NCBI RefSeq assembly: GCF_017303295.1
Contig: NZ_JAFKOK010000011.1
Location: forward strand, 62,001-126,000
DNA from: Rhodobacter sp. NTK016B
Lineage (GTDB): Bacteria > Pseudomonadota > Alphaproteobacteria > Rhodobacterales > Rhodobacteraceae
DNA: 64,000 nucleotides
Direction of reading: 5' to 3'
Program-made: the position numbers and the translations under genes
Notes under the pieces: generated by a model
Told to the model about the DNA's origin: nothing
What the model saw: the letters and a program-made list of their open reading frames with translations, nothing else
The model's database searches: none
Shown here: positions 2,468 to 27,222 of the stretch, one piece after another
Layout of the letters: each line of letters starts with the position of its first letter
Position numbering within the stretch: position 1 is the first letter of the stretch

Positions 2468-2502
2468 TCATTCCATCATTTTTTATCGCACTAAAAAATT
2501 TG

Positions 2503-2528
2503 TATTGACTAAATAATGATTGTCAATA
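2503..2528. promoter_or_regulatory. Inverted repeat, candidate TetR operator between divergent operons
   Basis: The two half sites TATTGAC (2503-2509) and GTCAATA (2522-2528) are perfect inverted repeats separated by 12 bp. On the minus strand the right arm supplies a perfect TTGACA -35 element, with TACAAA about 16 bp downstream as a possible -10 for tetR. The repeat overlaps an upstream in-frame ATG (2516) of the ABC ATPase gene, so a bound repressor would block transcription into the pot-like operon. Confidence 0.5.
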
Positions 2529-2560
2529 GCGTTGCCGAAACACCAGACGAATGGACCGCG

Positions 2561-3637: not shown

Positions 3638-4550
3638 GGCCGCATCGGGCGAAGCCCTGCTGCGGCGCGCCGAGACGCGTCGGCGCTGGTCGCTGGCGAT
3701 GCCCGCCCTGATCGTGATCTCGCTGTTCTCGATCCTGCCGTTGGCGGTGATGGTCGTCTATTCGTTCCTTACGCCCGGCACCTACGGCAATGTCGAATGG
3801 CAATTTTCGCTCGATGGCTGGTTCTCGGTCATCTTCGAGCGGGATCTGTTCGACGACACGCTCGGCCTTGCTGATGCGCATCTGTCGATCCTGGGGCGTT
3901 CGGCGCTACTCGCCCTCGCGACCACGGCTCTGACCATGGTGTTCGGACTGCCGACGGCATGGTTCATTGCGACCCGGCCCGTGGCGTCGCGCGCCTATTG
4001 GATGTTCCTCATTACCGTGCCCTTCTGGACCAACCTTCTGGTGCGCACCATCGCCATCCAAGAGGTCATCCGCGCCGACGGCACGATCAACCGGTTGCTG
4101 CTGGGGCTGGGCGTGATCGACGCGCCGATCCAGATGATGTTCACCAATGGCGCGGTGCTGCTGGGCATGACCTATGTCTATCTGCCGCTCATGGTTCTGC
4201 CCGTCTACGCGGCCATCGAAAAGTTCGATTTCCGGCTCGCCGAGGCGGCCTATGACCTGCATGCCTCGCGCTTCTATTGCCTGCGCCGCGTCATCTTTCC
4301 GCTGATCCGGCCCGGGGTCATCGCGGGTTCGATCCTTGTCTTCATTCCCGCGCTCGGCGCCTATGTCACGCCGCGGCTGATGGGCGGAGGCCGGGCGATG
4401 ATGTGGGGTAACCTGATCGACCTGCAATTCGGGCAGGGCCGCAACTGGCCGCTGGGCGCCGCGCTGTCGGTGTCGCTGACGTTGCTGGTGATGATCGCGC
4501 TTGTGCTGAGTGTGCGGCGCTTTGCCGGCGGGGGGCGGGCGGATGGCTGA
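3627..4550 (+). CDS. potB: Polyamine-type ABC transporter permease (PotB-like)
   Basis: This 307-residue inner-membrane permease has about six hydrophobic segments. An EAA loop near [25 protein letters not shown] fits the coupling motif that contacts the ATPase. Length and topology match PotB/PotH. It begins inside the ATPase gene and ends in an 8-bp overlap with the next permease, showing tight translational coupling. It would form the translocation pore together with the following permease. Confidence 0.87.
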
Positions 4551-5346
4551 ACGAAAATTCTCTGTCAGGCATGTCCCCGGCGCCGCGCCGATCGCGATCG
4601 TGACCTTCATCGCGCTTTATGCCCCGATCGTCATCCTGATCGCGAATGCCTTCAACGCGGGCCCAGTCATCGGCCGGTGGGAGGGCTTTTCTCTGCGCTG
4701 GTTCGCCTCGGCCATGCAGAACGAGGCCTTTCGCAATGCCGCCCTCAACTCGCTGATCGTCGCGATGCTGGCCGCGCTGTTCTCGACCCTTCTGGCCGTG
4801 ATGGCCGCGCTGGCCATTACGCGCGGGCGGCGGCTCAAGGGTGAAGGCGGCATCTTCGTGGTGCTGAACCAGCCGCTTCTGGTGCCTGAGATTGTCCTCG
4901 CCATCGCACTGATGATCGTGCTGGCCCAGATCAAGCAGGCGACGGGCTATCACGGTCTTGCCTACATGATCGTCGCGCATTCCACCTTCTGCATCCCTTT
5001 CGCGTTCATGCCGATCCGCGCGCGGCTCGAGGGCATGGATCTGACGTTGGAAACCGCGGCGATGGATCTCTATGCGGGACGTTTCTACACCTTCCGGCGC
5101 GTCACGCTTCCGCTTCTTGCGCCCGGAATCCTTGCCGGGTTCATGCTGGCCTTCGTCGTGTCGCTCGACAATGTCGTGGTCAGCAGCTTCGTGAAATCGC
5201 CCGGGCAGGAAACGCTGCCCACCTACCTGATGGGCGAGCTGCGGCGCAATCTCAGCTCAGAAATCTACGCGATCTCCGCCCTCCTTCTGTTCGCCAGCGT
5301 GACGGTCGTCGCGGCGTCGTGGCTCATCACAAGACGCAAACCATAA
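4543..5346 (+). CDS. potC: Polyamine-type ABC transporter permease (PotC-like)
   Basis: The second permease of the importer has 267 residues when started at ATG 4543 ([11 protein letters not shown]), overlapping the preceding stop. An upstream in-frame start at 4510 lies within the previous gene and is less likely. It has hydrophobic helices and an EAA-type loop (ETAAMDLYAGRFYTFRRVTLPLLAPG). The SLDNVVVSSF region and length are typical of PotC/PotI. It pairs with the preceding permease. Confidence 0.87.
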   Translation: MAERKFSVRHVPGAAPIAIVTFIALYAPIVILIANAFNAGPVIGRWEGFSLRWFASAMQNEAFRNAALNSLIVAMLAALFSTLLAVMAALAITRGRRLKGEGGIFVVLNQPLLVPEIVLAIALMIVLAQIKQATGYHGLAYMIVAHSTFCIPFAFMPIRARLEGMDLTLETAAMDLYAGRFYTFRRVTLPLLAPGILAGFMLAFVVSLDNVVVSSFVKSPGQETLPTYLMGELRRNLSSEIYAISALLLFASVTVVAASWLITRRKP

Positions 5347-5382
5347 CCAACCCAAAAATCGCCCAACAACGGAGAAGAACAC

Positions 5383-6417
5383 ATGAAACGGAAAGCCTGT
5401 TTTCTGGGAAGTGCCGCCGCTGCGGCCCTGCTGGCGCAGGGCGCTCTGGCCGAGGGGCGGCTCAACATCTACAATTTCGGGCTCTATACGCCGCCCGAGC
5501 TGCTCGAGCGGTTTTCCGAAACCTACGATGTCGAAGTCTCGCTGACCGAGTTCGCGGCGAATGAGGAAGCCATCGCGCGGATTCAGGCAGGCGGCCACGG
5601 GCTGGATGTCGTGCTGGTCAGCGGGTATTTCATCCCCGCCTATCTCGATCAGGGCCTTTTGATGGAAAGCCACCCGAACGAGATGGAGAATTTCTCCAAC
5701 GTCGCGCCGGAATGGGCGTCGATCACCAATGATCCCGAGCGCGCTTATACCGCGCCGTGGGTCTGGGGCACGACCGGCGTGATGGTGAATACCGGGCTCT
5801 ACGATGGCGACATCAATACAGCCGCCATCTTTCTCGACCCTCCCGAGGAACTTAGCGGCACGATCAATCTCGTCCCGTCGATGAACGATGTGATCGACAT
5901 GACGCTGCGCTATATCGGCGCCGAACCCTGCACCAGCGACCGCGAGGCTCTGAGCGCAGCGCGCGATCTTCTCACCTCGGCAAGCGAGCATTGGGCGTCG
6001 ATCGATTACGCCTCGTTCGAGAAATTTGTGAACGAAGATCTCAATGCGTCGGTGTTCTGGAGCGGTGCGGCCGGGCGTATTCGCGATGCCAATCCCGATT
6101 TCGCTTATGGCTGGCCCGAGACCGGCTATATCCAATGGATGGACAACATGGCGATCCTGGCCGATGCCACCAACGTCGAGAACGCGCGCCTGTTCCTGAA
6201 CTTTATCATGGCGCCGGAAAACGCCGCGATGATCTCGAACTATACGCGCTATGGCAACGGCATCACCGGGTCCGAGGCTTTCATGGATGCGGGGCTTCTG
6301 GATTCGCCCGAATTGCAGGTGCCCGAGGCGCTCGAAGGCGCTGCGATCGACCAGCAACTCTGCGCGCCGGCGGTTCAGGAACTCTACACCCGGATCTGGA
6401 CCGAGCTTACGCGCTGA
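5383..6417 (+). CDS. potD: Polyamine-type ABC transporter substrate-binding protein (PotD/PotF-like)
   Basis: The 344-residue periplasmic protein has a Sec signal peptide (MKRKACFLGSAAAAALLAQGALA, cleavage after ALA). The mature start RLNIYNFGLYTPPELLERF is typical of PotD/PotF. The aromatic-rich segments APWVWGTTGVMVNTGLY and VFWSGAAGRIRDANPD match the ligand-cleft regions of the family. A GGAGAAGAAC ribosome-binding region precedes the ATG. It is last in the operon, 36 bp after the second permease. Whether the ligand is putrescine, spermidine or another cationic amine cannot be decided here. Confidence 0.87.
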   Translation: MKRKACFLGSAAAAALLAQGALAEGRLNIYNFGLYTPPELLERFSETYDVEVSLTEFAANEEAIARIQAGGHGLDVVLVSGYFIPAYLDQGLLMESHPNEMENFSNVAPEWASITNDPERAYTAPWVWGTTGVMVNTGLYDGDINTAAIFLDPPEELSGTINLVPSMNDVIDMTLRYIGAEPCTSDREALSAARDLLTSASEHWASIDYASFEKFVNEDLNASVFWSGAAGRIRDANPDFAYGWPETGYIQWMDNMAILADATNVENARLFLNFIMAPENAAMISNYTRYGNGITGSEAFMDAGLLDSPELQVPEALEGAAIDQQLCAPAVQELYTRIWTELTR

Positions 6418-6463
6418 TCGGAGGCGTCGTTCGGGAAGAACCGAGCCGGGTTTTCATCCGGTG

Positions 6464-6586
6464 GGGTAGGGACCTGAGCTTTGATCGGGCCCTGCCCTTC
6501 CCGTCAGGGAATCGTCGCAGTTGGAGATCACGGTGGTGAAGTCTGTTGCACCCTCGGTCAAGCTCGGCGCTTTACGGGAAGCGCCG
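6464..6586. terminator. Two stem-loops between potD and flgI, candidate terminators
   Basis: The 236-bp gap between the convergent pot-like and flagellar operons holds two stem-loops. One pairs GGGTAGGG (6464-6471) with CCCTGCCC (6490-6497), one G-U pair included. The other pairs CGGCGCTT (6565-6572) with AAGCGCCG (6579-6586). Neither has a strong T-tract, so factor-independent termination is uncertain. No convincing gene was found in the gap. Confidence 0.35.
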
Positions 6587-6653
6587 GTATCCGACACACC
6601 ATTTCTGCCTTGTTTTCAGAATGTCTTGGCGGGTCAATCTCCTGCTTCCAGGG

Positions 6654-7757
6654 TCAATGAACCACCAGATCGGCATGCAACGCGCCTGCGGCATTGATCG
6701 TGTTGAGGATGTCGATCATGTCACGCGGACCGACACCCAGCGCATTCAGCCCGGCGACCACTTCTGCCAGCGACGTGCCCCCCTGCAATTCCGCCAGCCC
6801 GGTTCCCGGTTGTGGCATGATCTCGGCATTCGTGCGCGGCACAACGACCGTCTCGCCGGGGGAAAACGGGTTGGGCTGGATCGCTTGCGGCATTTCTTCC
6901 ACTCTCAGCGTCAGACCCCCTTGCGCGACGGCGACCCGGCTGATGCGCACGTCTTCGCCCATGACAATCGTGCCCGAGCGCTGATCGATGACCACGCGCG
7001 CCCGCGTTCCGGGCGAGATGGGAAGGTTTTCGATCCGGCTGAGCGCATGGGCCGCCGTCGGCGCACGCGTCGCGGCGATGTCGAGTACCACGGTGCCCGA
7101 ATCCTGCATGGCCGCGACGGCGCGTCCGAAATGGGTATTGATCGCCCGCTCGATATGCAGCGCCGTGGTGAAATCGGCCTGACGAAGCGCAAGCCGGACG
7201 CGCGACAGCGACGCCAGCTGAAAGTCGACCTCGCGTTCGACCCGTGCCCCGCCGGGTATCGTGCCCGAGGTGGGAACGCCCTCGACCACCTGTGCGGCCT
7301 CGCCGCGCGCGGCGACGCCACCGGCGATGACCGCGCCCTGGGCAACGGCATAGATCTGCCCGTCCGCCCCGTTCAACGGTGTCATGACCAGCGTTCCGCC
7401 GAACAGCGAGTTTGCGTCGCCGATTGCCGAAACGGTCACATCGACCCGCGATCCCGTGCGCGCGAAGGGCGGAAGCGTCGCGGTTACCAGCACCGCAGCG
7501 ACATTGCGCGGGCGAAACTGCTCGCCCGTCACATTGACGCCCAGCCGCTCAAGGATATTGGTCATGATGTCTTCGGTGAAGGGCGCGTTGCGCAAACCGT
7601 CCCCGGTTCCGTCCAGCCCCACGACGAGGCCGTAGCCGATCAGATCGTTGCCGCGAACTCCGTCGAATTCGACGAGATCCTTCAGCCGGATCTGCGCGGC
7701 GGCGGCCTGACACATCAGCGCAAGCAGGATCAGGGCGCAAAACGTGGCCCGCATCAC
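6654..7757 (-). CDS. flgI: Flagellar P-ring protein FlgI
   Basis: This 367-residue secreted protein forms the periplasmic P-ring around the flagellar rod. It has a signal peptide (ATFCALILLALMCQAAAA). The family's start RLKDLVEFDGVRGNDLIGYGLVVGLDGTGD and the motifs NVAAVLVTATLPPFARTGSRVDVTVSAIGDA are near diagnostic. The C-terminus contains GTSLAEVVAGLNALGVGPRDMIDILNTINAAGALHADLVVH, as in FlgI proteins. Its start overlaps the end of flgL by 4 bp. No rod-binding (FlgJ-like) gene follows it here. Confidence 0.95.
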   Translation of the reverse strand: MMRATFCALILLALMCQAAAAQIRLKDLVEFDGVRGNDLIGYGLVVGLDGTGDGLRNAPFTEDIMTNILERLGVNVTGEQFRPRNVAAVLVTATLPPFARTGSRVDVTVSAIGDANSLFGGTLVMTPLNGADGQIYAVAQGAVIAGGVAARGEAAQVVEGVPTSGTIPGGARVEREVDFQLASLSRVRLALRQADFTTALHIERAINTHFGRAVAAMQDSGTVVLDIAATRAPTAAHALSRIENLPISPGTRARVVIDQRSGTIVMGEDVRISRVAVAQGGLTLRVEEMPQAIQPNPFSPGETVVVPRTNAEIMPQPGTGLAELQGGTSLAEVVAGLNALGVGPRDMIDILNTINAAGALHADLVVH

Positions 7758-8761
7758 AGATACTCCGTCAGCGACAGGCGCGCTGTCCTTGCGGTGAAGA
7801 CATAAAGCGTTTCCAGCCGCGCCTGCACCACTTCGAGCTGGCCGGCTACCTCATAAGGATCGGCCCCGACGAGATTCTGGCGGGCAAGGCGCAGCGTATC
7901 GCGTTCGCCGGTCAGCCGTGCCGAGACATCGTCGAGCTGCGCTTGGGTGTCGCCGAGGCTGCCCTGCAGGACGGCAATGCTGGCTGAACTGGCCATCAGG
8001 GTCTCTGACCCTGCGCGGGCCAAAGCCCGGCGCTGGCCATCCGACAGGCTCAAGCTGTCCGAGCCCGCAAGCGCAGAGATCACCAGTCCCGTCATCACCT
8101 GTCGCAAGGCGGGATCGGCCGCAGTGGGCAGCGCGTTGGCGGTCAGGCCGGTATCGATGGCCGCGCCCGTGGCGGCGGCTCCGCCCTGATAGAGGCTTGT
8201 CTCGAACGTTCCGCCCGGATCCATGAACTCCGACGTCACCGCGGCGATGATGTCGTCGGTATTGGACAGCGCGGTGACCGACGGCAGGATCGCGGCGATA
8301 ATCGTGTCCGCATCGGGCAAAGGGGGTGTGTCGCTTGCGATTCCGGAAAAGACCGCGCGCCCTGCGACGCGTTGACCCAGCGATGCGGACAGGTCGTTCA
8401 ACGCGCCTTGCGCCGCGATCGCGGCTGAGCGCAGCGTGGGCATCGCGGTTCCGTCTGATGACACAGCCAGCATCCGCGTTGCGGCATCCGCCGCCGTATC
8501 CGAGACCCGTTGCAGCGCGGTCTGGGTTATGTCGGCGGCGCTGGTTGCAAGCTTGTTGGCTTCGAGAAAGGCGTCGATCCGGGTCAGGCGCGATTCAAGC
8601 GCGCTGAACGGTGCCAGATCGCCCTTCAGCACCTTCTCGGGTCTGGCAACCTGCCCTGAGGTCAGTTCGAGCCCGAGGCGCGAGACATGATCGCGAAGGG
8701 TGACGGCGTTCCGGTTAAGTTGAAAGGGCAGCGCGAGACTTCCGAGGGAATTCCAGGTCAT
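7754..8761 (-). CDS. flgL: Flagellar hook-filament junction protein FlgL (flagellin-like)
   Basis: The 335-residue protein resembles FlgL/HAP3, which joins hook to filament outside the cell. It has a flagellin-like N-terminal helical region (RDHVSRLGLELTSGQVARPEK) and a C-terminal coiled helix ending LYVFTARTARLSLTEYL. Position between flgK and flgI on the same strand supports the call. The N-terminus is divergent from enterobacterial FlgL, as is usual in Rhodobacteraceae. It sits 3 bp after flgK and overlaps flgI by 4 bp. Confidence 0.85.
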   Translation of the reverse strand: MTWNSLGSLALPFQLNRNAVTLRDHVSRLGLELTSGQVARPEKVLKGDLAPFSALESRLTRIDAFLEANKLATSAADITQTALQRVSDTAADAATRMLAVSSDGTAMPTLRSAAIAAQGALNDLSASLGQRVAGRAVFSGIASDTPPLPDADTIIAAILPSVTALSNTDDIIAAVTSEFMDPGGTFETSLYQGGAAATGAAIDTGLTANALPTAADPALRQVMTGLVISALAGSDSLSLSDGQRRALARAGSETLMASSASIAVLQGSLGDTQAQLDDVSARLTGERDTLRLARQNLVGADPYEVAGQLEVVQARLETLYVFTARTARLSLTEYL

Positions 8762-8764
8762 CGG

Positions 8765-10192
8765 TCAGATCTCCAACAGGGTGCGGATCATGGCATCGGC
8801 GGTCTGGATCACGCGCGCATTGGCGGCGTAGGCCTCTTCGATCAGCAGCAGTTTCTGCATTTCGGCATCGGTATCGACGCCCTGTTCCAGCATCGCTTCG
8901 GTCAGCGTGTCGAGCCGCGTCCTTGCCGTGGTGGCGCCGTCTTCGGCCCATTGGCGTTCGGTCGAGATATCGGCCAGAATCGCCCCCAGCGTGGTGGCGG
9001 AATCCTGTAGGGGGGCCCCGGGGCCGGACGAAATGGTCCGCTCGAGCGCGCCGAGCATGGCGTTGATCTGGGTCGCGTCGCCGACGGGTCCCGCCGCCGC
9101 CGCGCCGATCCCGTCGCGCAATCGCCAGAGCGCGCCGCCATTCGCCGGATCGACGAGGGTGTTCACGCTCAGCCGTCCGGCAAGGCCGGGCAGGCCGGTA
9201 TCGGGGCCGTCTTCATCGGTAAAGAAACCGACCCCACCTGCCAGCGTGGCATCCGTCGCCGGATCGGCGAAGCGCGCGATCAGGTCGCTGGCATAGCTGT
9301 CGATCTGCGATTGTGCCGAGACCGCGTTGATATCGCGGGCGGTGAAGGCAGCGGCGAGACGCCCGCCGCCCAGCGGTCCGGTTTCAGCGGTCGAGACGGC
9401 CTGTCCGTTGATGGTGAGGCCCGACAATTCCACGCCGACGCTCATCGAGGCGTCGATCGCTACGGTCGGCGAGAAACCGAGCGTCGCGGGTTGCGTGTCG
9501 AGCAACAGGCGGCCGGAGGCAGAATAGATCATAACCCGGCCGTGGTCGCGCGGATATTCCTTGATCGGTACGATCTCGGACAGGCGACCGATCAGTTCCT
9601 GACGTTCGTCTTCGAGACCCAGCGTGGATTGGCCGCTCAGACGCATCTTGACGATCTGTTCGTTGAGCTTGTCGATTTCGATAAGGCCATTATTGACGGT
9701 GTCGACATCGCGCGCGATCTGCGCATCGGCGTCCATGCGCAGCGTCTGCACACGATCTTCGACGGTCGCCAGAGTTTTGGCGAGCGCGGTGCCGGTTTCG
9801 ACGATGCGCGAGAGGCGGTTGTCCAGATCCGGCCGTTCCGAGGCCGAGATCAGCGCGCTTTCAAAGGCCGAAAGCGCAGCGGAGACGCCCTTGTCGGGAA
9901 GCCCCATCGCGGTTTCGACGCTTTGCCAGAATTTCTGCGCATAGGTGCTGGCCGCGGTCGAGGCGCCGGCATCGCGGTGCAGGCCCAGTGTGACCGGGTC
10001 GACCATGCGCGTGATGCCGGCGATGCGCACCCCCGACCCCGCGCCCCCCAGAGAGGAGGACGCGAGATCGAGCCGCCGGGCGGCATAGCCCGGCGTGAGC
10101 ACGTTGGCGACATTGGCCGACGCGACCTGAACCGCGCGGGCCGAAGCGGTCAGGCCCGTCGTGGCGTTATGCAGCGAGCTTGCGATGCTCAT
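8765..10192 (-). CDS. flgK: Flagellar hook-associated protein 1 FlgK
   Basis: This 475-residue hook-associated protein starts with the flagellar rod/hook family N-terminus (LHNATTGLTASARAVQVASANVANVLTPGYAAR). It ends with the matching C-terminal coiled segment (LLLIEEAYAANARVIQTADAMIRTLLEI), which pairs with the N-terminus in the axial structure. The order flgE-flgK-flgL and the 18-bp gap from flgE support the assignment. Confidence 0.93.
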   Translation of the reverse strand: MSIASSLHNATTGLTASARAVQVASANVANVLTPGYAARRLDLASSSLGGAGSGVRIAGITRMVDPVTLGLHRDAGASTAASTYAQKFWQSVETAMGLPDKGVSAALSAFESALISASERPDLDNRLSRIVETGTALAKTLATVEDRVQTLRMDADAQIARDVDTVNNGLIEIDKLNEQIVKMRLSGQSTLGLEDERQELIGRLSEIVPIKEYPRDHGRVMIYSASGRLLLDTQPATLGFSPTVAIDASMSVGVELSGLTINGQAVSTAETGPLGGGRLAAAFTARDINAVSAQSQIDSYASDLIARFADPATDATLAGGVGFFTDEDGPDTGLPGLAGRLSVNTLVDPANGGALWRLRDGIGAAAAGPVGDATQINAMLGALERTISSGPGAPLQDSATTLGAILADISTERQWAEDGATTARTRLDTLTEAMLEQGVDTDAEMQKLLLIEEAYAANARVIQTADAMIRTLLEI

Positions 10193-19183: not shown

Positions 19184-20563
19184 ATGTCCGACACAATCAC
19201 CACCGTGAATCCGGCCACCGGCGAGACGCTGCAAAGTTATACCCGGATGACTGCCGCCGAGGCCGCCGACGCGGTCGAAGCCTGTCACAAGGCCTTTCTG
19301 GACTGGCGCCACCGCCCGCTGAAAGAACGCGCCGAGGTCATCCGCGCCATCGGCAAGGAGCTGCGCGATGTGAAGGACGATCTGGCGACACTAATGACCG
19401 ACGAGGTCGGCAAGCTGTTGAAGGACAGCCGTCAGGAAATCGACCTCTGCGCCGCGATCTGCGATTTCACCGCCGAAAACGGGCCAAAGGTTCTGGCCGA
19501 TGAAGAACGCAAGATCGACAACGGCACCGGCGTCATAACCTATGCCCCGGTCGGGGTTATATATGGCATTCAGCCGTGGAATTTCCCCGCGTATCAGGCA
19601 ATGCGGTATGCCATCGCCAACCTGATGGCCGGGAACGGTGTGCTGCTAAAACACGCGTCCAGCTGCACGGGTTCTGGCCTGATGCTGCGCGATATCTTCG
19701 AACGCGCGGGCCTGCCCAAGAACCTGTTCACCGTGCTGCTGATCGACCACGATACGTCTGACGCGATCATCGCCAATCCGCATGTGCGGGGCGTGACGCT
19801 GACGGGCTCGGACAAGGCGGGCAAGGTCGTGGCGGAAAAGGCTGGTGCGGCGCTGAAGAAGACCGTGCTCGAACTGGGATCGAACGACGCCTATGTGGTG
19901 CTCGACGATGCTGATCTCGAACTTGCGGTGAAGACCTGCGTGGCGGGCCGGATCTATAACAACGGCCAGACCTGCGTGAACGCCAAGCGCTTCATCGTGA
20001 CCGAGGCCAATTACGACGCCTTCGTCGAGGCCTACACCAAAGCAATGCAACAGATCGAACCGGGCGATCCCACGGACAAGGCGACCAAGCTGGGCCCGAT
20101 GTCGGATACGGGACTGCGCGACGATCTGCACAAACAGGTCGAAGAAAGCCTTACCAAAGGCGCGCGGGCGCTGTGCGGGGCCAAGGTGCCGGATCGCGCG
20201 GGTGCGTGGTATCCGGCGACCGTGCTGGTGGACGTGGCGCCGGGGCAGCCGGCCTATGACGACGAATTGTTCGGCCCTGTCGCGTCGATCATTCGCGCGC
20301 GCGATGACGAGGACGCGATGCGCATCGCCAATGACAGCCGCTATGGCCTTGGCGGCGGGATCTTTTCGAAAGACGTGGCCCGCGCGCGCAAGCTGGCCTG
20401 CGAGCATTTCGATACCGGCATGGTTTCGGTCAACGGCTACAACGTCGCCAAGCCCAACATGCCCTTCGGTGGGGTCAAGGATTCAGGCTATGGCCGCGAG
20501 CATGGCGGTTTCGGCATGAAGGAATTCGTCAATGCGAAATCCGTCTTCCTGACCGGCGTGTGA
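19184..20563 (+). CDS. NAD(P)-dependent aldehyde dehydrogenase, succinate-semialdehyde dehydrogenase-like
   Basis: The 459-residue cytoplasmic enzyme has the aldehyde dehydrogenase layout: NAD-binding IQPWNFPAYQAMRYAIANLMAGN, the general-base Glu in VLELGSNDAYVVL, and the catalytic Cys in NNGQTCVNAKRFIV. The C-terminal motif KPNMPFGGVKDSGYGREHG is typical of the succinate-semialdehyde branch. GGGAAGATATC precedes the ATG. It lies 85 bp after livM, separated by a strong stem-loop, and may share transcription with the transporter. The exact aldehyde is not certain; the product could serve GABA, lysine or branched-chain breakdown. Confidence 0.88.
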   Translation: MSDTITTVNPATGETLQSYTRMTAAEAADAVEACHKAFLDWRHRPLKERAEVIRAIGKELRDVKDDLATLMTDEVGKLLKDSRQEIDLCAAICDFTAENGPKVLADEERKIDNGTGVITYAPVGVIYGIQPWNFPAYQAMRYAIANLMAGNGVLLKHASSCTGSGLMLRDIFERAGLPKNLFTVLLIDHDTSDAIIANPHVRGVTLTGSDKAGKVVAEKAGAALKKTVLELGSNDAYVVLDDADLELAVKTCVAGRIYNNGQTCVNAKRFIVTEANYDAFVEAYTKAMQQIEPGDPTDKATKLGPMSDTGLRDDLHKQVEESLTKGARALCGAKVPDRAGAWYPATVLVDVAPGQPAYDDELFGPVASIIRARDDEDAMRIANDSRYGLGGGIFSKDVARARKLACEHFDTGMVSVNGYNVAKPNMPFGGVKDSGYGREHGGFGMKEFVNAKSVFLTGV

Positions 20564-20576
20564 TCCGTCGCTTTCC

Positions 20577-20609
20577 GAATGACCCGCGCGTCCGGCGTGC
20601 GGGTCATTC
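20577..20609. terminator. Convergent bidirectional stem-loop
   Basis: GAATGACCCGC (20577-20587) pairs perfectly with GCGGGTCATTC (20599-20609) around an 11-nt loop, between the dehydrogenase and the convergent kinase gene. The right arm includes the kinase stop codon. It would terminate both transcripts, although no long T-run is present. Confidence 0.5.
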
Positions 20610-23600
20610 CTCGTCGGCGGGTTCTTCTTCGGGCGGCACGAAGGCGGGCATGCTCAGCCCCAGCCGCAGCATGCCGTCGGCCACGTCGCGTTCAAGCTCG
20701 GCCCCCAATTGCATGACCGAGGCCTGCACCAGACGCGAGCCAAAGCCCGACCCGGTGCCGCTGTCCTCGAAGGAGTCGACGCTTTCCTCCCAGGTTATCT
20801 GGAAGCGCTCGTCGCCATTCGTCCAGCGGATCGCCAGCGTGCCTTTGGGATCGGACAGCGCGCCGTACTTGGCCGAGTTGGTGCTCCATTCGTGCAAGAT
20901 CAGCACCAAAGGCGTCAGTTCGCGCACCGGGACCAGCGTGTCGGGGCCGTCGATGCGGATTTCCTGCCCGCCGCGCGCGGGTTCCAGAACCCGTTCCAGA
21001 AGCTGCGGCAACGAGATCGGAGCCCGCATGTTGTCGCGCAGCATCAGCGCATGCGCCCGGTCCAGAGCCGAGATCCGCCCGCGGAGGTTCTGCGAGAATT
21101 GCCGGGTTGTCTCGCTTTCGCGCTCGACGCTGGAAATCATCGCCGACACCACCGCGAACAGGTTCTTGATGCGGTGATTCATCTCGGCCAAGTGCAGTTC
21201 GCGCTCTTCCAGCATCCGGTGTTCGGCGCTGATGTCGAAGGTCACGCCCATCACCCGCGGATCGCCGTCGCGCAGCACGAATCGTCCCAGACCGCGCAGC
21301 CATTTCGTTTCGCCGTTCTGCCCCGAGACCCGGAAGCTTTCGTCGAAATTGCGCTTGTTCGCGGCGGCATCGGTCAGGGAGCGGGTGACCGCGTCGCGGT
21401 CATCCTCGTAGACGCGGTCCATCAGCTTCGACAGATCGCTGGGTTCTTCAGCGTTCAGGTTGAAGAACTCGCGTTCGGTCTCATCCAGTTCGGTATTGCC
21501 GGTGATCGGGTTGTACGACCAGATCCCCACCTTCGCGACCTCGATCGCCAGCGCGAGGCGCGCGCGTTCGTCCTTCAGCGCGCGCTCCAGCGACAGCGAG
21601 GCGGTGATGTCGGTAAAGATCAGCGTCGCGCCGTCCTGCGTGCCGTCGAGCAGGCGGTAAGGCATCACCCGGACCGCGAAGTCGTGGCCGCGTTGTTCGT
21701 CGCGCATCCGGTCCTCGATGGTTTCGCCGGTTTCGGCCACCTTGCGCGCATGGTCGAGATAGCGCGTCGTCCCGAGGGGCGAGGTCACATCGGCCAGCGA
21801 CCGGCCCCGGTCGCCCGGCTGGAACGGGAACAGGCTCATTGCCGCGTCGGTGAAGCTGCGGATCTGCATGTGCCGGTCCACCACGATCACCGCAAGCTGG
21901 GTCGAGTCGAAGAAGTTCTTCAGATCCGCATTCGCCGCCGTTAGCTGATCGACCTTGGATTTCAGCTCGTCATTGACGGTTGTCAGCTCTTCGTTTGTCG
22001 ATTGAAGCTCTTCGTTCATCGACATCATTTCTTCGTTCGAGCTTTTGAGCTCCTCGTTCGCGGTCTCCAGCTCTTCGACGGTCGAGCGCAGGCGGTGACG
22101 CATCACCCGCAGCTCATTCTCCATCAGGTGAACCTGACTGTCGCCGTCGCGCAGCTCGACGTAATCTTCTTCGCCGTTCGACTGGAAGCCGCCGGTTTCA
22201 CGGATGACAATCAACAAGGCGTTGTCGCGCACCGGTTCGCAGATCACCCGAACGTCCTGCGTGCCGAAATCGGCCCGCACGGTCACGTCCTTGACGATAT
22301 GCGCGCGTCGGTCGCCCGATGTCTGGCGCACCAGGGGCCCCAGCACGTCGCGCAGGCCCGGTTTCGCCAGCGAGGGCGCGTATTGGCGGCGCTCCCGTTC
22401 CGAGGGGAAGTCGAAATAGCGTCCGACCGGGCCCCATGTGTTGATGATCCCGCCCGCGCTGTCGACCAGCAGCGTCGGCGGCGCGTAGCGCTGCGTCATC
22501 TGCTGCAGCGCTTCGCTTTCAAGCCAATCCTGAGCGCCGCCATTCCCGTTGCTGTCGCCGGGATTTTGCGGGCCGGTCGGCTTGGTGCGCCGACCGCCGC
22601 CGCTGGCTGCAGGCAGGTTCAGCGGATAGCTCAGCCGCACCGAGCGGCGACGGAACAGCCGGTGGCGATGATTGACCTCGTCGAACAGATCGTCGAAGCG
22701 CCCTATGGTTTCTGACGAGCCGAGGAACAGGTATCCGTCAGGCCGCAGCGCGTAATGCATCAGCGGCATGACCGAACGCTGAAGATTTTCGTCAAGGTAA
22801 ATCAGCAGGTTGCGGCACGACACAAGGTCGATGCGCGAAAACGGCGGGTCCTTGATAAGGCTATGCGCGCTGAACCGGACCATGTCGCGGATCTGCGGCA
22901 CGATGTTGAAATGATCGCCCGAGGCGGTGGTGAAACGGGTGCGGAACGGCTCGGGCACATCGGCCAAAGCGGCCAGCGGATAGCTGCCTTCGCGCGCGAT
23001 CTCGAGCATCCGCTCGTCGATGTCGCTGGCGAAGATGTTGACCACCGGATAGCGCTTGTGACGTGTCATCGCGTCGCGAAACAGCATGGCGATGGAATAG
23101 GCTTCCTCGCCGCTGGAACAGCCCGCGACCCAGATCCGCAACTCGTCGGAATCGCTGGCATCGCGTACCAGCGGGTCGATGGCGCGCTCGGCCAGCGTGG
23201 TAAAGGATTCGGTGTCGCGAAAGAAGCGCGTGACGTTGATCAGCAGGTCGCGGAACAGCGTCTGGCACTCGCCCGGATCGCTGCGCACGCGGGTGACGTA
23301 ATCGGCGCCCTCGGCAATCCCCAGAACCTGCATCCGGCGCTGGATGCGGCGCGACAGGGTGCGCCGCTTGTAGCCGGAGAAGTCATGGCCGGTCGCGTCA
23401 TTCAGCGCGGTGCACAGATCGTCGATGTAATCGGCCACTTGCGCGGTCGGATCGGCCACCGGGTTCCTGGCATCGCGGCGGAAGAAGTCGCTCAGCACCG
23501 GCAGGATCTCGCGCGCGGGGCGGACGAAATCGACCAGCCCGGTGCTTTCCGCCGCCAGCGGCATCCCGTCATAGCGCGCTTCGGTGGGTTCCTGTGCGAC

Positions 23601-24050
23601 GGCAAGGCCGCCATGCTCTTTAATCGCGCGGATGCCCCGGCTGCCATCGGCGCCGGTGCCCGACAGGATCACACCCGCCGAGCGTTGTGCGTGCTCGACA
23701 CCGAGGATCTCGAAGAAATCGTCGATCGGTCGCCGCATACCGCGCGGCGCGTCGAAATCGTGCAGTTCCAGCACGCCATCGCGGATGCTCAGATTGCGCC
23801 CCGGCGGGATCACATAGACGTGACCGGGCTCGACCTGCTCGCCACCGCTGATCTGCGTCACGGGCATCGACGTGTAACGGTCGATGAGCTGCGCCATCAT
23901 TGATTCGTGGTTGGGGTCGAGATGCTGAATCACGATGAGAGCCATCGCGGCATCGCCGGAAAACCCCTCGAGCATATCGCGCAAAGCTTCGAGGCCGCCT
24001 GCGGAGGCCCCGATGCCGACGATCGGAAAATCAGGTCGTTGGTCGTTCAT
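20604..24050 (-). CDS. CheB-CheR-PAS-HWE histidine kinase hybrid sensor
   Basis: This 1148-residue multi-domain protein begins with a CheB-type methylesterase (about 8-190; GIGASAGG nucleophile region, QHLDPNHES His, SGTGADG Asp). A CheR-type methyltransferase follows (about 205-485; LLINVTRFFRD, WVAGCSSGEEAYSIAM). A long coiled coil of repeated NEEL/NEEM units (about 655-705) leads into two PAS domains (about 710-950). The C-terminal HWE/HisKA_2 kinase has the phospho-acceptor stretch EMNHRIKNLFAVV and the ATPase N-box HEWSTNSAKYGAL with a late WEE. It lacks the response-regulator receiver of canonical CheB. No transmembrane segment is seen. It lies 98 bp downstream of a Crp/Fnr gene that is itself coupled to a LOV photoreceptor. 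Confidence 0.9.
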   Translation of the reverse strand: MNDQRPDFPIVGIGASAGGLEALRDMLEGFSGDAAMALIVIQHLDPNHESMMAQLIDRYTSMPVTQISGGEQVEPGHVYVIPPGRNLSIRDGVLELHDFDAPRGMRRPIDDFFEILGVEHAQRSAGVILSGTGADGSRGIRAIKEHGGLAVAQEPTEARYDGMPLAAESTGLVDFVRPAREILPVLSDFFRRDARNPVADPTAQVADYIDDLCTALNDATGHDFSGYKRRTLSRRIQRRMQVLGIAEGADYVTRVRSDPGECQTLFRDLLINVTRFFRDTESFTTLAERAIDPLVRDASDSDELRIWVAGCSSGEEAYSIAMLFRDAMTRHKRYPVVNIFASDIDERMLEIAREGSYPLAALADVPEPFRTRFTTASGDHFNIVPQIRDMVRFSAHSLIKDPPFSRIDLVSCRNLLIYLDENLQRSVMPLMHYALRPDGYLFLGSSETIGRFDDLFDEVNHRHRLFRRRSVRLSYPLNLPAASGGGRRTKPTGPQNPGDSNGNGGAQDWLESEALQQMTQRYAPPTLLVDSAGGIINTWGPVGRYFDFPSERERRQYAPSLAKPGLRDVLGPLVRQTSGDRRAHIVKDVTVRADFGTQDVRVICEPVRDNALLIVIRETGGFQSNGEEDYVELRDGDSQVHLMENELRVMRHRLRSTVEELETANEELKSSNEEMMSMNEELQSTNEELTTVNDELKSKVDQLTAANADLKNFFDSTQLAVIVVDRHMQIRSFTDAAMSLFPFQPGDRGRSLADVTSPLGTTRYLDHARKVAETGETIEDRMRDEQRGHDFAVRVMPYRLLDGTQDGATLIFTDITASLSLERALKDERARLALAIEVAKVGIWSYNPITGNTELDETEREFFNLNAEEPSDLSKLMDRVYEDDRDAVTRSLTDAAANKRNFDESFRVSGQNGETKWLRGLGRFVLRDGDPRVMGVTFDISAEHRMLEERELHLAEMNHRIKNLFAVVSAMISSVERESETTRQFSQNLRGRISALDRAHALMLRDNMRAPISLPQLLERVLEPARGGQEIRIDGPDTLVPVRELTPLVLILHEWSTNSAKYGALSDPKGTLAIRWTNGDERFQITWEESVDSFEDSGTGSGFGSRLVQASVMQLGAELERDVADGMLRLGLSMPAFVPPEEEPADEE

Positions 24051-24077
24051 GGCAGAGAGGAGGCAAATCCGGAACAG

Positions 24078-24104
24078 ATGCGGTAGTGAATACTAACACC
24101 GCAT
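24078..24104. repeat. Inverted repeat between the Crp/Fnr gene and the kinase gene
   Basis: ATGCGGT (24078-24084) and ACCGCAT (24098-24104) form a perfect 7-bp inverted repeat with 13 bp between. It lies about 30 bp upstream of the kinase start, in a locally AT-richer 98-bp gap. It could be an operator for a separate kinase promoter or an intercistronic hairpin. Confidence 0.35.
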
Positions 24105-24148
24105 TAATTTCCTTGTCCAGAAGTTAACGATGTTTTGCCCGTGCCCGA

Positions 24149-24889
24149 TCAATCGAGCATCAGGTCGCCCTTGCCATACAGGTACGACGGATCGAAGCCC
24201 CCCAGTTCGATCAGCGCGTCCTTGTCCATGATCGTGACGCGGCCGCGCGAAATGTCGGCGATACCGCTTTCGCGCAGTTTGCGCACCACGCGATTCATGT
24301 GGATCGCCGTGGTGCCGCAGGAATCGGCCAGTTCCTGCTGCGTCAGCGGGAAAGAGAACCCGCTTGAATCGGCAAGCCCCACGAAATCCAGCCGCTGCCA
24401 GATCTCGGCGATCAGATGCGCCAGCCGGCCATCGGCGCTGAGATGTTCGAGCTTGAGAATCCACTCGCGGTGCATCGCCGCGTCCAGCAGGGTCGAGAAC
24501 CACAGCATCCGCGCCAGACGGGGCCGGGTTTCAAGGATCTCTTCCAGCTTCGTATGCGGGGTGTAGCCGACCAGAACCGGCCCGATCGACACGATCGAAT
24601 GATCCAGCCGCTTAAGCGCGAAAGCGTGCAAATCGACGAAATCGCCCGGAACATGCAACGCAAGGATATGGCGGCGGCCTTCCTGCTTGATGACGCGCGC
24701 GACGAAGCCTTCGATCAGCAGCGTGCTGCGGCTGACCACGTCGCCGCGTTCCAGAACCGAATGCGCCGAGGTGAAGCGCTCGACATCGGTGATCATGTCT
24801 TCGATCGTGCGCTGGTCTTCGTCGTCCAACCGGTGCCTGGCACGGCCCAGCAGGAAGCGGTGCGACATCGGATACGGCGTCGAAGTCAA
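24149..24889 (-). CDS. Crp/Fnr family transcriptional regulator coupled to the LOV gene
   Basis: The protein has a cyclic-nucleotide-binding-like beta barrel (about 40-125; VSRSTLLIEGFVARVIKQEG, ALHVPGDFVDLHAF). It ends in a winged helix (LTQQELADSCGTTAIHMNRVVRKLRESGI). The recognition helix lacks the Arg-Glu pair of CRP, so it should not bind TGTGA sites. No N-terminal cysteine cluster is present, arguing against an oxygen-sensing Fnr. I prefer the TTG start at 24889, which overlaps the upstream stop codon and follows GAGGAG at good spacing (246 residues); ATG 24868 would give 239. The direct overlap with the LOV gene implies co-translation and a shared pathway. Confidence 0.88.
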   Translation of the reverse strand: MTSTPYPMSHRFLLGRARHRLDDEDQRTIEDMITDVERFTSAHSVLERGDVVSRSTLLIEGFVARVIKQEGRRHILALHVPGDFVDLHAFALKRLDHSIVSIGPVLVGYTPHTKLEEILETRPRLARMLWFSTLLDAAMHREWILKLEHLSADGRLAHLIAEIWQRLDFVGLADSSGFSFPLTQQELADSCGTTAIHMNRVVRKLRESGIADISRGRVTIMDKDALIELGGFDPSYLYGKGDLMLD

Positions 24890-25419
24890 TGGTTCGCTCC
24901 TCGGGACTGGGCGATCAGGGCAGTGCTGGTCGCGAGGGATTCGATGCTTCCATACATCAGATACCCCGTATCGCCCGCAATGATGGACACTTGACGGATA
25001 TCGTCTCTCAGGGCGGAATCGTAGAGCGTGTCGTTGCGCCCGTCGATCCGCGCCGCGTCGAATTGCGAGCCCAGAACGAAGAGACAGGTCTTTCCGTGGA
25101 AAATCTTCGTCATGTACAGCACGTTGACGAAGGGTGTGCCGTCCTTGCGGCGGTTGGAAAGAAGAAAGCGTTCGGTCGTGTCGTCGTCGTTCGCAAGGAA
25201 AGCACGCATGCGCTCTCTCACGGGCCCGGCGCCGTCCGGTGGCTGCAGGAACCGGCAATTCTGGCCGATCACATCTTCTGGCCCGTAGCCTGTCAGCTTG
25301 CAAAACGCATCGTTGACGAAGACCAGAGGAAAATCCTCGGCCGTTGCGTCGGCAAGAGTCAGCGCGACGCCGCTCTGCTTCAGGAACGATAGCAAGGGGG
25401 CTGGGACAGATGCAGTCAT
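24886..25419 (-). CDS. Short LOV-domain blue-light photoreceptor
   Basis: The 177-residue protein (from ATG 25419) contains the LOV signature GQNCRFLQ with the photoactive cysteine at about residue 55, which forms the flavin-C4a adduct in this family. Other LOV features are NDAFCKLTGYGPEDVIG before it, RRKDGTPFVNVLYM after it, and the conserved Gln in LFVLGSQFD. A C-terminal helical tail of about 55 residues without an effector domain follows. This is the layout of short LOV proteins known from Rhodobacter sphaeroides and Dinoroseobacter shibae. An upstream TTG start at 25449 would add ten residues. It is translationally coupled to a Crp/Fnr regulator. Confidence 0.9.
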   Translation of the reverse strand: MTASVPAPLLSFLKQSGVALTLADATAEDFPLVFVNDAFCKLTGYGPEDVIGQNCRFLQPPDGAGPVRERMRAFLANDDDTTERFLLSNRRKDGTPFVNVLYMTKIFHGKTCLFVLGSQFDAARIDGRNDTLYDSALRDDIRQVSIIAGDTGYLMYGSIESLATSTALIAQSRGANH

Positions 25420-25742
25420 TGTTATATGTTCGGCTTTCGGCAGAGCCAATCTGCACTAACTTAGGTTAATGCGCCATCGCAAACGCAGAAAAAGATTGCG
25501 ATTTCATTTAGAAACTAGCGTAAAACGACTCTGTTCCATCGGCTATCGAAAAAAGATGAATCCATCGCTGCGTCAGGCTTCCGCCTGTCGGAACGCGCGG
25601 CGGGCTCTTGTCGTCTTTTGCTTTCCTATTGCAATGTGCCGGGCAATCCGCACGATACCGACATATCCCCCAAAACGGACCGACCCGTCCCGCGCCCCAT
25701 GACCCAGCGCCGCATGACCCAGCGCCCCGAGATTTTGCGTCC
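25420..25742. other. Divergent intergenic region between LOV and GntR genes with inverted and tandem repeats
   Basis: No gene is visible. A 7-bp perfect inverted repeat, ATCGCAA (25476-25482) and TTGCGAT (25496-25502), lies 57-83 bp upstream of the LOV start and is a candidate operator. Just before the GntR gene the 14-mer CATGACCCAGCGCC occurs twice with a 15-bp period (25698-25711, 25713-25726). The left half is AT-richer than its surroundings, fitting a promoter region. Confidence 0.4.
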
Positions 25743-26531
25743 ATGACCAAGCCGTCCCCGAAACGAGCCGCAGCGTCGTCGCGTGCGTCCCGCACGGCTC
25801 CGCGTCGCTCGCGGCCTGTCCGCGTGGCCGAAGAGATCAAGGACTGGGTGGTCGACCGCAATCTGAAAAAGGGCGACCGCCTGCCCAGCGAGCCCGAGCT
25901 GATTGCGCAGTTCGGCATGGCCAAGGGGACGATCCGGGAAGCGATGCGCATTCTGGAGGCGCAGGGACTGATCGAGACCCGAACCGGACCGGGGGGCGGC
26001 AGTTTCATCGGCGAGGTGACGGCGGACCGGGCCAAGGCCTTGCTGGCGAATTATTTTTATTTCACCGAATTGTCGGTCGCGGATATCTATCAGCTGCGCA
26101 AGGCGCTGGAGCCGGAACTGGTCGCATCGCTTGCCGGCAAGCTGGACGAGGCCCAGATCGCCGAGCTGGAAGCGGTGGTCGCGCAATATCCCGAGCCCGC
26201 ACAGGACGCCGAGGAAGAGCGCGAACAGCATATCGCCTCGCTGGTCTTTCACCGGCGGTTGGCGAATTTCTCGAACAATCCGCTGCTGGCTTTCGTGGTC
26301 AGTTTCATGGCCCGGATCCTGACCGATCTGACGGTGTATCGTCAGCTTTATGATCCCCCCAACCGCGAGCTTTACGAAAAGGGTACCGCCTATCAGAAGG
26401 ATCTGATCGCGGCGTTGAAAGAGGGCCGCGGCGAAGAGGCCCGCGCGATCATGCGGGCGCATATGGAGACCGCCGAGGCGCTGATGCAGTTGCAGGAAGC
26501 CAAGGTCCTGCGCCGGTTCATCGCGGAATAG
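25743..26531 (+). CDS. GntR family transcriptional regulator, FCD (FadR/PdhR-like) domain
   Basis: The 262-residue regulator has a basic Ser/Arg-rich N-terminal tail, then a winged helix (VAEEIKDWVVDRNLKKGDRLPSEPELIAQFGMAKGTIREAMRILEAQGLIETR). An all-helical FCD ligand domain follows. The start is ATG 25743; a longer frame exists upstream but reads through a repeat. Its 3' end overlaps the convergent DUF1028 gene by 14 bp, and that gene diverges from a dipeptide-type ABC operon. It is therefore the likely local regulator of both. Confidence 0.88.
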   Translation: MTKPSPKRAAASSRASRTAPRRSRPVRVAEEIKDWVVDRNLKKGDRLPSEPELIAQFGMAKGTIREAMRILEAQGLIETRTGPGGGSFIGEVTADRAKALLANYFYFTELSVADIYQLRKALEPELVASLAGKLDEAQIAELEAVVAQYPEPAQDAEEEREQHIASLVFHRRLANFSNNPLLAFVVSFMARILTDLTVYRQLYDPPNRELYEKGTAYQKDLIAALKEGRGEEARAIMRAHMETAEALMQLQEAKVLRRFIAE

Positions 26532-27222
26532 ACGCGCTGTCGAAGCTGCGCTTGTCCGCGTCGCTGGGCGCACGCCACGGATCGTCGAGCACCGGCACGA
26601 CCCGCAACCAGCCGTGGTAGGGGTCCGCCGTCGCCCGGGCATGAAGATCGGCCAGCGCAGCCAGCGGATCGGCGGAATGGTCGATGCGCAGCGTAAAGGG
26701 AGGCATGTCGCGCCCGACGACCAGCAGCGCCGCCGATTGGTAACCGCGCACATCGCCCCCCTCTTTCGCCGATGCCGCGAGCGCGGCCATCAGCCGTTCC
26801 GAGAAGGGCAGGGGCGAGGACAGGAAAGCGTCGAGCGCGGCTTGCAGAACCGAGGGGCCGGTCAGCATGTTGCCCGCCACCACGACGCCCGGCGCCGTCA
26901 CCGCGCTGGCATGGGGGACGCTGTTATCGCCGGTGAAATGCGCCGTGCCCCGGTTCAGATCCAGCGCCGACAATTGTCGTTCGGCCCGCCCGGTATCGGG
27001 ATCGGTCACCGCGCGCACCGCGTCCTGCGCCGAGGCGCCTTCCTTCATGCGCGCCAGAACGCCGTCGCCCCACAGGGTCGAAGGGGCCGATCCCTGGCTT
27101 GCGGACAGGCCCGATTCGGCGTCGCCCCGCAGCACCCAGCCCCCGACGCACAGGCTCCCGGTCGCGGCGGCGCCACCAAGGCGGCCCGATTTTTCATCAA
27201 AAGCAAGGATCGAGATCGTCAC
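26518..27222 (-). CDS. DUF1028 family protein
   Basis: This 234-residue protein starts with TISILAFDEKSGRLGGAAATGSLCVGGWV, typical of DUF1028 proteins, an Ntn-hydrolase-like family of unknown activity. Later GDNSVPHASAVTAPGVVVAGNMLTGPSVLQAALDAF fits the family. I chose the GTG at 27222 because CGGAGG lies 7 bp upstream; an upstream start would add ten non-family residues. DUF1028 genes often neighbour peptide or amino acid uptake genes, as here (divergent dpp-type operon). No signal peptide is seen. Confidence 0.87.
   Translation of the reverse strand: MTISILAFDEKSGRLGGAAATGSLCVGGWVLRGDAESGLSASQGSAPSTLWGDGVLARMKEGASAQDAVRAVTDPDTGRAERQLSALDLNRGTAHFTGDNSVPHASAVTAPGVVVAGNMLTGPSVLQAALDAFLSSPLPFSERLMAALAASAKEGGDVRGYQSAALLVVGRDMPPFTLRIDHSADPLAALADLHARATADPYHGWLRVVPVLDDPWRAPSDADKRSFDSASIPR

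Follow-up and report, generated by a model that had tools for sequence, protein, structure and literature searches.

The genome of Rhodobacter sp. NTK016B contains, within a 64,000-nucleotide stretch that was analysed as a whole (contig NZ_JAFKOK010000011.1, positions 62,001 to 126,000; hereafter the window), three genes on the minus strand that encode a short LOV photoreceptor, a Crp/Fnr-type regulator and a large histidine kinase with CheB, CheR, PAS and HWE domains. Our best explanation of these genes, to which we assign a probability of about 0.62, is that they specify a split LOV-histidine kinase, in which the LOV protein would act in trans on the kinase, the Crp-type protein would set the dose, and the output may pass to PhyR. 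It was the repeated pairing of free-standing LOV genes with kinases of this same architecture in related bacteria, together with the co-inheritance of the two, that led us to favor this explanation.

All three genes had been proposed in a reading of the sequence alone, and they were found where that sequence-only reading had placed them. The LOV gene (24886..25419, minus strand, from an ATG at 25419 to a stop at 24886) encodes a protein of 177 amino acids, which was recognized from its open reading frame and motif, matches in the PDB, an alignment and a structural model. The motif GQNCRFLQ includes Cys55 (codon at 25255-25257), and this residue, Asn89, Asn99 and Gln119 all occupy invariant positions in an alignment of 21 rows; we take Cys55 to be the photoactive residue and the other three to be flavin contacts. 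The only Pfam matches of the protein were PAS-type and there was no fused effector domain, which places it among the short LOV proteins. An AlphaFold model based on 10 sequences had a mean pLDDT (predicted local distance difference test) score of 85.7, with the last 17 residues averaging below 70, and revealed, after an N-cap helix and the LOV core, a J-alpha helix of 24 residues and then a terminal helix, with a C-terminal extension of about 50 residues. The top PDB fold matches of the model were the entries for RsLOV, at near full length and with a TM (template modelling) score of 0.77. From these features we infer that the short LOV binds flavin and senses light.

The kinase gene (20604..24050, minus strand, ATG at 24050) encodes 1148 residues in the order CheB, CheR, coil, PAS, PAS and HWE, as judged from Pfam matches and motifs. 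The protein reached the Pfam cut-offs for CheB, CheR_N, CheR, PAS_10, PAS_3 and HWE_HK, with a CheB methylesterase domain at residues 11-183 (23502..24020; PF01339, E 7e-51), a CheR methyltransferase domain at residues 272-462 (22665..23237; PF01739, E 1.3e-55), PAS domains at residues 710-816 and 861-934 (21249..21923; PF13596 and PF08447) and an HWE phosphoacceptor domain at residues 956-1037 (20940..21185; PF07536, E 1.3e-16, and a motif check), all encoded on the minus strand. The CheB, CheR and HWE motifs looked for were intact, those marking it as an HWE kinase being the phosphoacceptor His in EMNHRIKN, the N-box HEWSTNSAKYGAL and WEE (WxE). In addition, residues 817-1127 aligned to residues 137-449, the PAS-HWE part, of Brucella LOV-HK (6ph4, E 4.4e-31). 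As the sequence-only reading had noted in contrast to that protein, LOV and kinase are separate in the window, not one polypeptide, and the Crp gene stands between their genes.

The pairing of LOV and kinase proved to extend well beyond the window. A LOV search of 394 genomes of the family produced 91 matches in 71 genomes at E 1e-12 or better, and of the 90 that lie outside the window, 40, selected mainly by a short open frame, were examined with their wider surroundings. Of these, 33 were judged to be free-standing LOV genes, giving 34 with the window, and the other seven were fused or unclear; some of the longer-frame matches outside the 40 may also be free-standing. Twenty-one of the 34 adjoin a CheB-CheR-PAS-HWE kinase gene, nine in tandem (with an intervening Crp gene in the window and at L031, and without one at L032-L038) and 12 divergently (L039, L040, L043-L046, L048-L050, L052, L054 and L063). 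No such kinase was seen near the remaining 13 (L041, L042, L047, L051, L053 and L055-L062), two of which, L051 and L061, are near contig ends, so that a neighbor could be missed. Eight of the 13 encode DsLOV-like proteins with no C-terminal extension; a kinase was nearby for none of these eight DsLOV-type genes versus 21 of the 26 LOV genes with the extension.

A scan of 84,980 species genomes produced at least 80 LOV loci, and in all of the best eight of these the LOV gene is followed by the kinase gene, with no Crp match in any. They derive from a Sphingomonas metagenome-assembled genome, Sagittula marina, Sagittula salina, Limimaricola pyoseonensis, Sphingomonas pituitosa, Aureimonas ureilytica, Maritimibacter alkaliphilus and Sphingomicrobium lutaoense, which we take to belong to the Rhodobacterales, Sphingomonadales and Hyphomicrobiales, and two of the eight were judged to overlap the family set (L033 = L073 and L035 = L074). 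Among the 80 loci listed there were two further divergent pairs, L081 and L128, and the remaining 70 had no full match to the kinase from CheB to HWE. In a class-wide LOV search (385 genomes, 49 with a match, 1.5-kilobase flanks) a CheB-CheR kinase was found beside LOV only in the window; the matches in that search were mostly long open frames and were kept out of the counts. A survey of LOV neighborhoods had been suggested in the sequence-only reading, and its outcome was divided, as the LOV-kinase part is conserved (21 of 34 in the family, and the best eight of at least 80 loci), but Crp is not found in 13 distinct tandem loci that keep the other two genes.

A divergent pair was also found for a crystallized protein. 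The LOV protein of G790 is identical to RsLOV (PDB 4hj4, 175 of 175 residues), and its gene is divergent beside a kinase gene whose product matches the window kinase from CheB through HWE; next after the kinase comes a receiver gene, the product of which is 80% identical to the receiver at L048. In the genus of RsLOV the LOV gene is present in five of five genomes, with the kinase start beside it in four. No paper naming this kinase as the partner of RsLOV was found among the open-licence literature.

Phylogenetic analyses showed that LOV and kinase have been inherited together. In a kinase tree of 41 rows the 16 tandem kinases are on one side of a branch (support 100/99), while the 14 divergent kinases need four changes and have LOV-less kinases nested among them, and in a LOV tree of 30 rows the tandem and the divergent LOVs form one clade each (100/100 for both). 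The LOV and kinase distances were highly correlated in Mantel tests, with r 0.944 for the 16 tandem pairs and 0.833 for the 14 divergent pairs (0 of 2000 permutations each). Sphingomonas pituitosa and Aureimonas, members of different families, group together in both trees, as is expected if the pair moved as a unit. In a lineage with a short kinase, which has Crp, LOV and CheB-CheR are both missing. The sequence-only reading had offered two outputs for the LOV protein, and signaling through the kinase was strengthened by the wide pairing and the congruent trees, while direct control of the Crp-type protein was left with adjacency in one genus.

Many of these kinases are accompanied by another small gene. 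Nine small open reading frames downstream of kinases all matched Response_reg in Pfam, seven of them above the curated cut-off, and a receiver gene, same-strand or convergent, adjoins the kinase gene at all Crp-less loci compared, both tandem (13 of 13 distinct loci) and divergent (14 of 14). The longest frames of these receivers are 118-195 amino acids, i.e., of single-domain length (the ends of the L054 frame were not settled, and the L038 receiver was identified by the Pfam scan). No receiver gene was matched in the 64 kilobases of the window, and none was found near the other Crp operons (L031, L280, L216 and L307-L310), making zero of eight with the window, which has no single-domain receiver encoded with its kinase in the manner of LovK-LovR.

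The mechanism that we propose from these observations is as follows. The short LOV would bind flavin, form a light adduct at Cys55 and act in trans on the CheB-CheR-PAS-PAS-HWE kinase via its J-alpha helix and C-terminal extension; both this contact and the direction of its effect are what we infer from the sequences. In relatives, the kinase would pass its phosphate to the adjacent single-domain receiver, as a split analogue of LovK-LovR. In the lineage of the window the receiver gene would have been lost, the Crp/Fnr-type protein would set the dose by making the operon self-regulating through TTAAC-N4-GTTAR, and the kinase would most likely signal to another receiver, for which the best candidate is PhyR of the general stress response.

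The Crp/Fnr-type gene (24149..24889, minus strand, TTG start at 24889) encodes 246 amino acids with cNMP_binding and HTH_Crp_2 domains. The protein passed the Pfam cut-offs (PF00027, 30.2 bits versus 27.5; PF13545, 52.1 versus 27) and is a member of the Crp/Fnr superfamily, with a cNMP-binding fold and a Crp-type helix-turn-helix, and it scored below the NCBIfam equivalog cut-offs for FnrL (59 bits versus 300) and CRP (26 versus 266). FNR proper, an Fe-S protein, is marked by an N-terminal cysteine cluster, which was not found in the Crp-type protein, its single Cys being in the helix-turn-helix part. A strong LOV match is present in three of 18 genomes of the window's genus, three others having weak PAS-like matches only, and Crp matches at E 1e-40 or better were in the same three LOV-bearing genomes and in none of the nine others of the 18 that were searched; the orthologues within the genus are 96 and 84% identical. 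Outside the genus, orthologues of 66-70% identity occur in five of the 394 family genomes, and no LOV match was present at the Crp loci searched in these five. In four of them (G002, G192, G128 and G229) the gene after Crp encodes a short PAS-HWE kinase (314-355 amino acids), and in the fifth, G272, an extracytoplasmic function (ECF) sigma factor; G192 also has LOV, kinase and receiver genes together at another locus, L037. Among more distant relatives of Crp, L191 (41%) is near an HWE kinase, and the remaining loci scanned had no HWE kinase match. A tree built from the C-terminal part of the kinases places the short ones as sister to those of the window's genus (100/98); Crp thus remained with the HWE core in a lineage that has neither LOV nor CheB-CheR, which is one event. 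The Crp-type protein appears to be an operon regulator specific to this lineage, or perhaps an output that stands in place of the receiver.

That the Crp-type protein probably regulates its own operon was suggested by a dyad, TTAACCTAAGTTAG (25456..25469, minus strand), a candidate Crp-type operator located 36 base pairs (bp) upstream of the LOV start. The pattern TTAAC-N4-GTTAR (CTAAC in G272), first spotted by eye in three of the eight Crp operons, is upstream of all eight, 34-110 bp before the first gene, whereas the 300 bp upstream of LOV contain it at none of the 13 Crp-less tandem loci. It was also absent from the 1.5-kilobase flanks of a distant Crp, L306 (38%). Genome-wide counts in four whole genomes, that of NTK016B first, were 4, 2, 3 and 4 versus 7, 6, 5 and 9 for a backwards control, i.e., the dyad is rare and not enriched, and with four strict dyads against seven in the control for its own genome a wider Crp regulon is not claimed. 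Two of the four are a pair of TTAACAGCTGTTAA at L298 (G000:C75:151500-156000, 2204 and 2251), beside genes that we take to be plasmid repABC or RepC-like; similar TTAACAGCTGTTAA-type pairs occur in G775 and G002 and are probably plasmid partition sites. Another strict dyad, at L297 (G000:C1:140500-143800, 1624), stands about 50 bp ahead of a gene that by eye is flavin-reductase-like and has one weak NCBIfam match; none of the sites listed for G775 and G222 corresponds to it.

The structure of the operon was also considered. The TTG start of Crp and the TGA stop of LOV share bases in TTGA (24886-24889), a 4-bp overlap, with GAGGAG (24897-24902) seven bases upstream of the TTG, and 98 bp separate the Crp stop from the kinase ATG, both junctions being as the sequence-only reading had described them. 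The overlap is kept in two species of the same genus, as GTGA in G775 and ATGA in G222, and as it persists while the start codon varies, it is no accident of start choice. LOV and Crp are likely in one transcription unit; the inclusion of the kinase in that unit, as originally proposed, is less clear, as it may also have its own promoter, TGGACA-N18-TAGTAT (24090..24119, minus strand), in the 98-bp gap. This promoter-like site came from a scan, is weak alone (one found versus 0.7 in shuffles of the region) and is largely kept in G775.

A link to the general stress response, also raised in the sequence-only reading, gained modest support from the presence of PhyR and an EcfG-like sigma factor and from a GGAAC-N16-NGTT motif upstream of the operon in three species, so that its output is perhaps to that response. 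A profile of six neighboring receivers had as its best matches in the NTK016B genome a bacteriophytochrome kinase and PhyR, followed by three OmpR-type or other regulators. PhyR scored 345 bits (cut-off 240) and the sigma factor 287 bits with PRK12546 (cut-off 270), the latter being called EcfG because it is beside PhyR. The candidate EcfG promoter, GGAAC-N16-AGTT (25513..25537, minus strand), is one base off the consensus GGAAC-N16-17-C/GGTT (PMC12148442), and a target list for Sphingomonas melonis (PMC6599016) holds a GGAAC-N16-AGTT site. In G775 and G222 an exact GGAAC-N16-GGTT begins 117-118 bp before LOV, the same distance as the window's motif; two alignments disagree on the placement of the G222 motif, and it is the distance to the start codon that is firm. 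The strict pattern was found in two of 29 upstream regions, both from the window's genus, with 0.19 expected from mononucleotide shuffles, and as a positive control the pattern ending in CGTT was found upstream of PhyR in the NTK016B genome. With two strict sites in 29 and a mismatch needed in the window, EcfG promoters were rejected as a general feature of LOV-kinase operons. In G272, the best NCBIfam model of the ECF sigma that follows the Crp orthologue (L302/L308, G272:C446) is that of the EcfG-like sigma of NTK016B, and GGAAC-N17-GGTT is upstream of its gene. The NTK016B genome also encodes, at L294 (G000:C6:69000-77000, 2608-5764), a bacteriophytochrome with kinase and receiver parts, directly preceded by a 193-amino-acid gene that had no NCBIfam match and that we take to resemble heme oxygenase.

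Several observations weigh against the split kinase. Five LOVs with the extension (L041, L042, L047, L059 and L062) have no such kinase nearby, and in G792, a genome with the RsLOV-type locus, the kinase (L315, G792:C31, about 2100-3130) has decayed, with a large internal deletion and broken frames, next to an intact RsLOV orthologue and a retained receiver. Conversely, a kinase search of the family genomes gave matches in 87 genomes at E 1e-100, of which 33 were strong over CheB to HWE (32 full and one ending at a contig end; two candidates were scored per genome, so further copies may be missed), and although 21 of these are the LOV-adjacent kinases, the other 12 have no LOV neighbor. The Mantel test leaves in any organism history that LOV and kinase share, and a tree in which the 16 tandem kinases form a group excluding the short kinases was not rejected (p 0.09). 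The absence of the receiver and the presence of Crp are probably one event, and hence one observation. Lastly, the candidate EcfG site of the window departs from the consensus by one base, and of 29 other upstream regions checked, 27 lack the strict pattern.

Among the neighbors of the 12 LOV-less kinases, the scan found a bacteriophytochrome, a PAS hybrid kinase, a Crp/Fnr gene (divergent beside the kinase, at L259) and a TspO, one each, and the remaining neighbors scanned were unrelated or had no match; small open reading frames at L258 and L267 had no match either and may not be real genes. The bacteriophytochrome, PAS_2-GAF-PHY-HWE-receiver, is at L262 (G230:C6:204500-216500, 3966-10187), where the kinase relative follows it in tandem, and other photoreceptors may therefore share this kinase family.

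Among the alternatives, the one that fares best, although we consider it unlikely, is that Crp has replaced the receiver as the output, with the kinase altering Crp, directly or via an unlinked receiver, and thereby the operon and other targets. The distribution of receivers fits this, a receiver gene adjoining the kinase at 27 of 27 loci without Crp and being found at none of the eight Crp operons, as does the persistence of Crp with the HWE core in the lineage that has neither LOV nor CheB-CheR, but Pfam found no receiver domain in Crp, the replacement was probably a single event, and with two strict dyads in its own genome once the partition-like pair is left out, no wider regulon is visible. 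Also improbable, and placed just behind it, is that LOV and kinase are merely co-regulated, the kinase sensing otherwise with its own PAS domains and LOV acting on a third protein. The 12 LOV-less kinases, one of them following a bacteriophytochrome that has its own HWE domain, and the G792 LOV beside its decayed kinase count in favor of this; two gene arrangements with congruent trees across distant families, and the joint absence of LOV and the N-terminal half of the kinase, go further than co-regulation requires. A more speculative thought, to which we give little weight, is that LOV works through the CheB-CheR half, as a docking site or even a light-adaptation module, throughout a split-kinase family that would include RsLOV and span the Rhodobacterales, Sphingomonadales and Hyphomicrobiales; it arose because the lineage without LOV is also without CheB-CheR and keeps only PAS-HWE. 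Least probable is that LOV binds the Crp-like protein in light and alters its DNA binding, as PmSB-LOV does with PmlR2, with the kinase as a passenger, since, despite the translational overlap kept in three species, the joint occurrence of LOV and Crp in the genus (three genomes, with Crp in none of nine others searched) and the precedent described in PMC9758184, LOV and kinase stay together in the 13 tandem loci that have no Crp, the Crp orthologues outside the genus are accompanied by a PAS-HWE kinase (four) or an ECF sigma (one) and showed no LOV match at the loci searched, and Crp accompanies the kinase more than LOV, for which reasons LOV-Crp as a conserved unit was rejected as the principal explanation.

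Around the three genes, an aldehyde-dehydrogenase-like gene is convergent with the kinase and a GntR-like gene (25608-26531) is divergent from LOV, both judged by eye; a GntR-type gene also adjoins LOV at L037 (8837-9520, Pfam, same direction), possibly by coincidence. An Rfam scan of 20000-27000 had no matches.

If the split kinase is correct, it would add a two-protein type to the light-regulated kinases, one of use in optogenetics, and would assign a role to the CheB-CheR-PAS-HWE kinases. For free-standing LOV proteins, which are common, a conserved, co-inherited kinase neighbor is a concrete candidate partner, and this includes the crystallized and much-used RsLOV. The remark in the sequence-only reading that short LOVs usually have no known partner is mostly still true, but one physical partner, a class II LitR, has been demonstrated (PMC9758184). 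According to a review (PMC6798134), the presumed signaling route of short LOV proteins is in trans, to a separate protein.

Several known systems are informative for comparison. DsLOV of Dinoroseobacter shibae is likewise a short LOV from a related marine bacterium, but unlike the window LOV it has no C-terminal extension (PMC4335406). LdaP (Dshi_1135) of the same species also signals by contact, in its case with the repressor PpsR (PMC10890935), yet with 338 amino acids and a kinase-like domain without the phosphoacceptor His it is not a short LOV. PmSB-LOV of Pseudomonas mendocina resembles the window LOV in being a short LOV beside its effector gene and acting in trans, and PmlR2, a class II LitR, was called the first physical effector of a short LOV by its authors in 2022 (PMC9758184), although PmlR2 is a MerR-family repressor and not a kinase. 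Caulobacter LovK-LovR shares with the proposed system a LOV domain, a HisKA2-type kinase, a single-domain receiver and a tie to the general stress network (PMC5964349). Brucella LOV-HK (LOV-PAS-HWE, 6ph4) similarly combines LOV, PAS and an HWE kinase, but in a single chain, to which the window kinase adds CheB-CheR, a coil and a further PAS before its PAS-HWE part. In Caulobacter LovK, too, LOV is fused to the kinase, and to our knowledge it is without CheB-CheR. A further parallel is RsLOV (PDB 4hia and 4hj4), which is 25-28% identical to the window LOV over the structural alignment, and whose locus differs in its divergent genes, its receiver and having no Crp seen, and which groups with the divergent clade via an 84% orthologue, L063; the two proteins share their fold over nearly their whole length, and both are encoded beside a CheB-CheR-PAS-HWE kinase.

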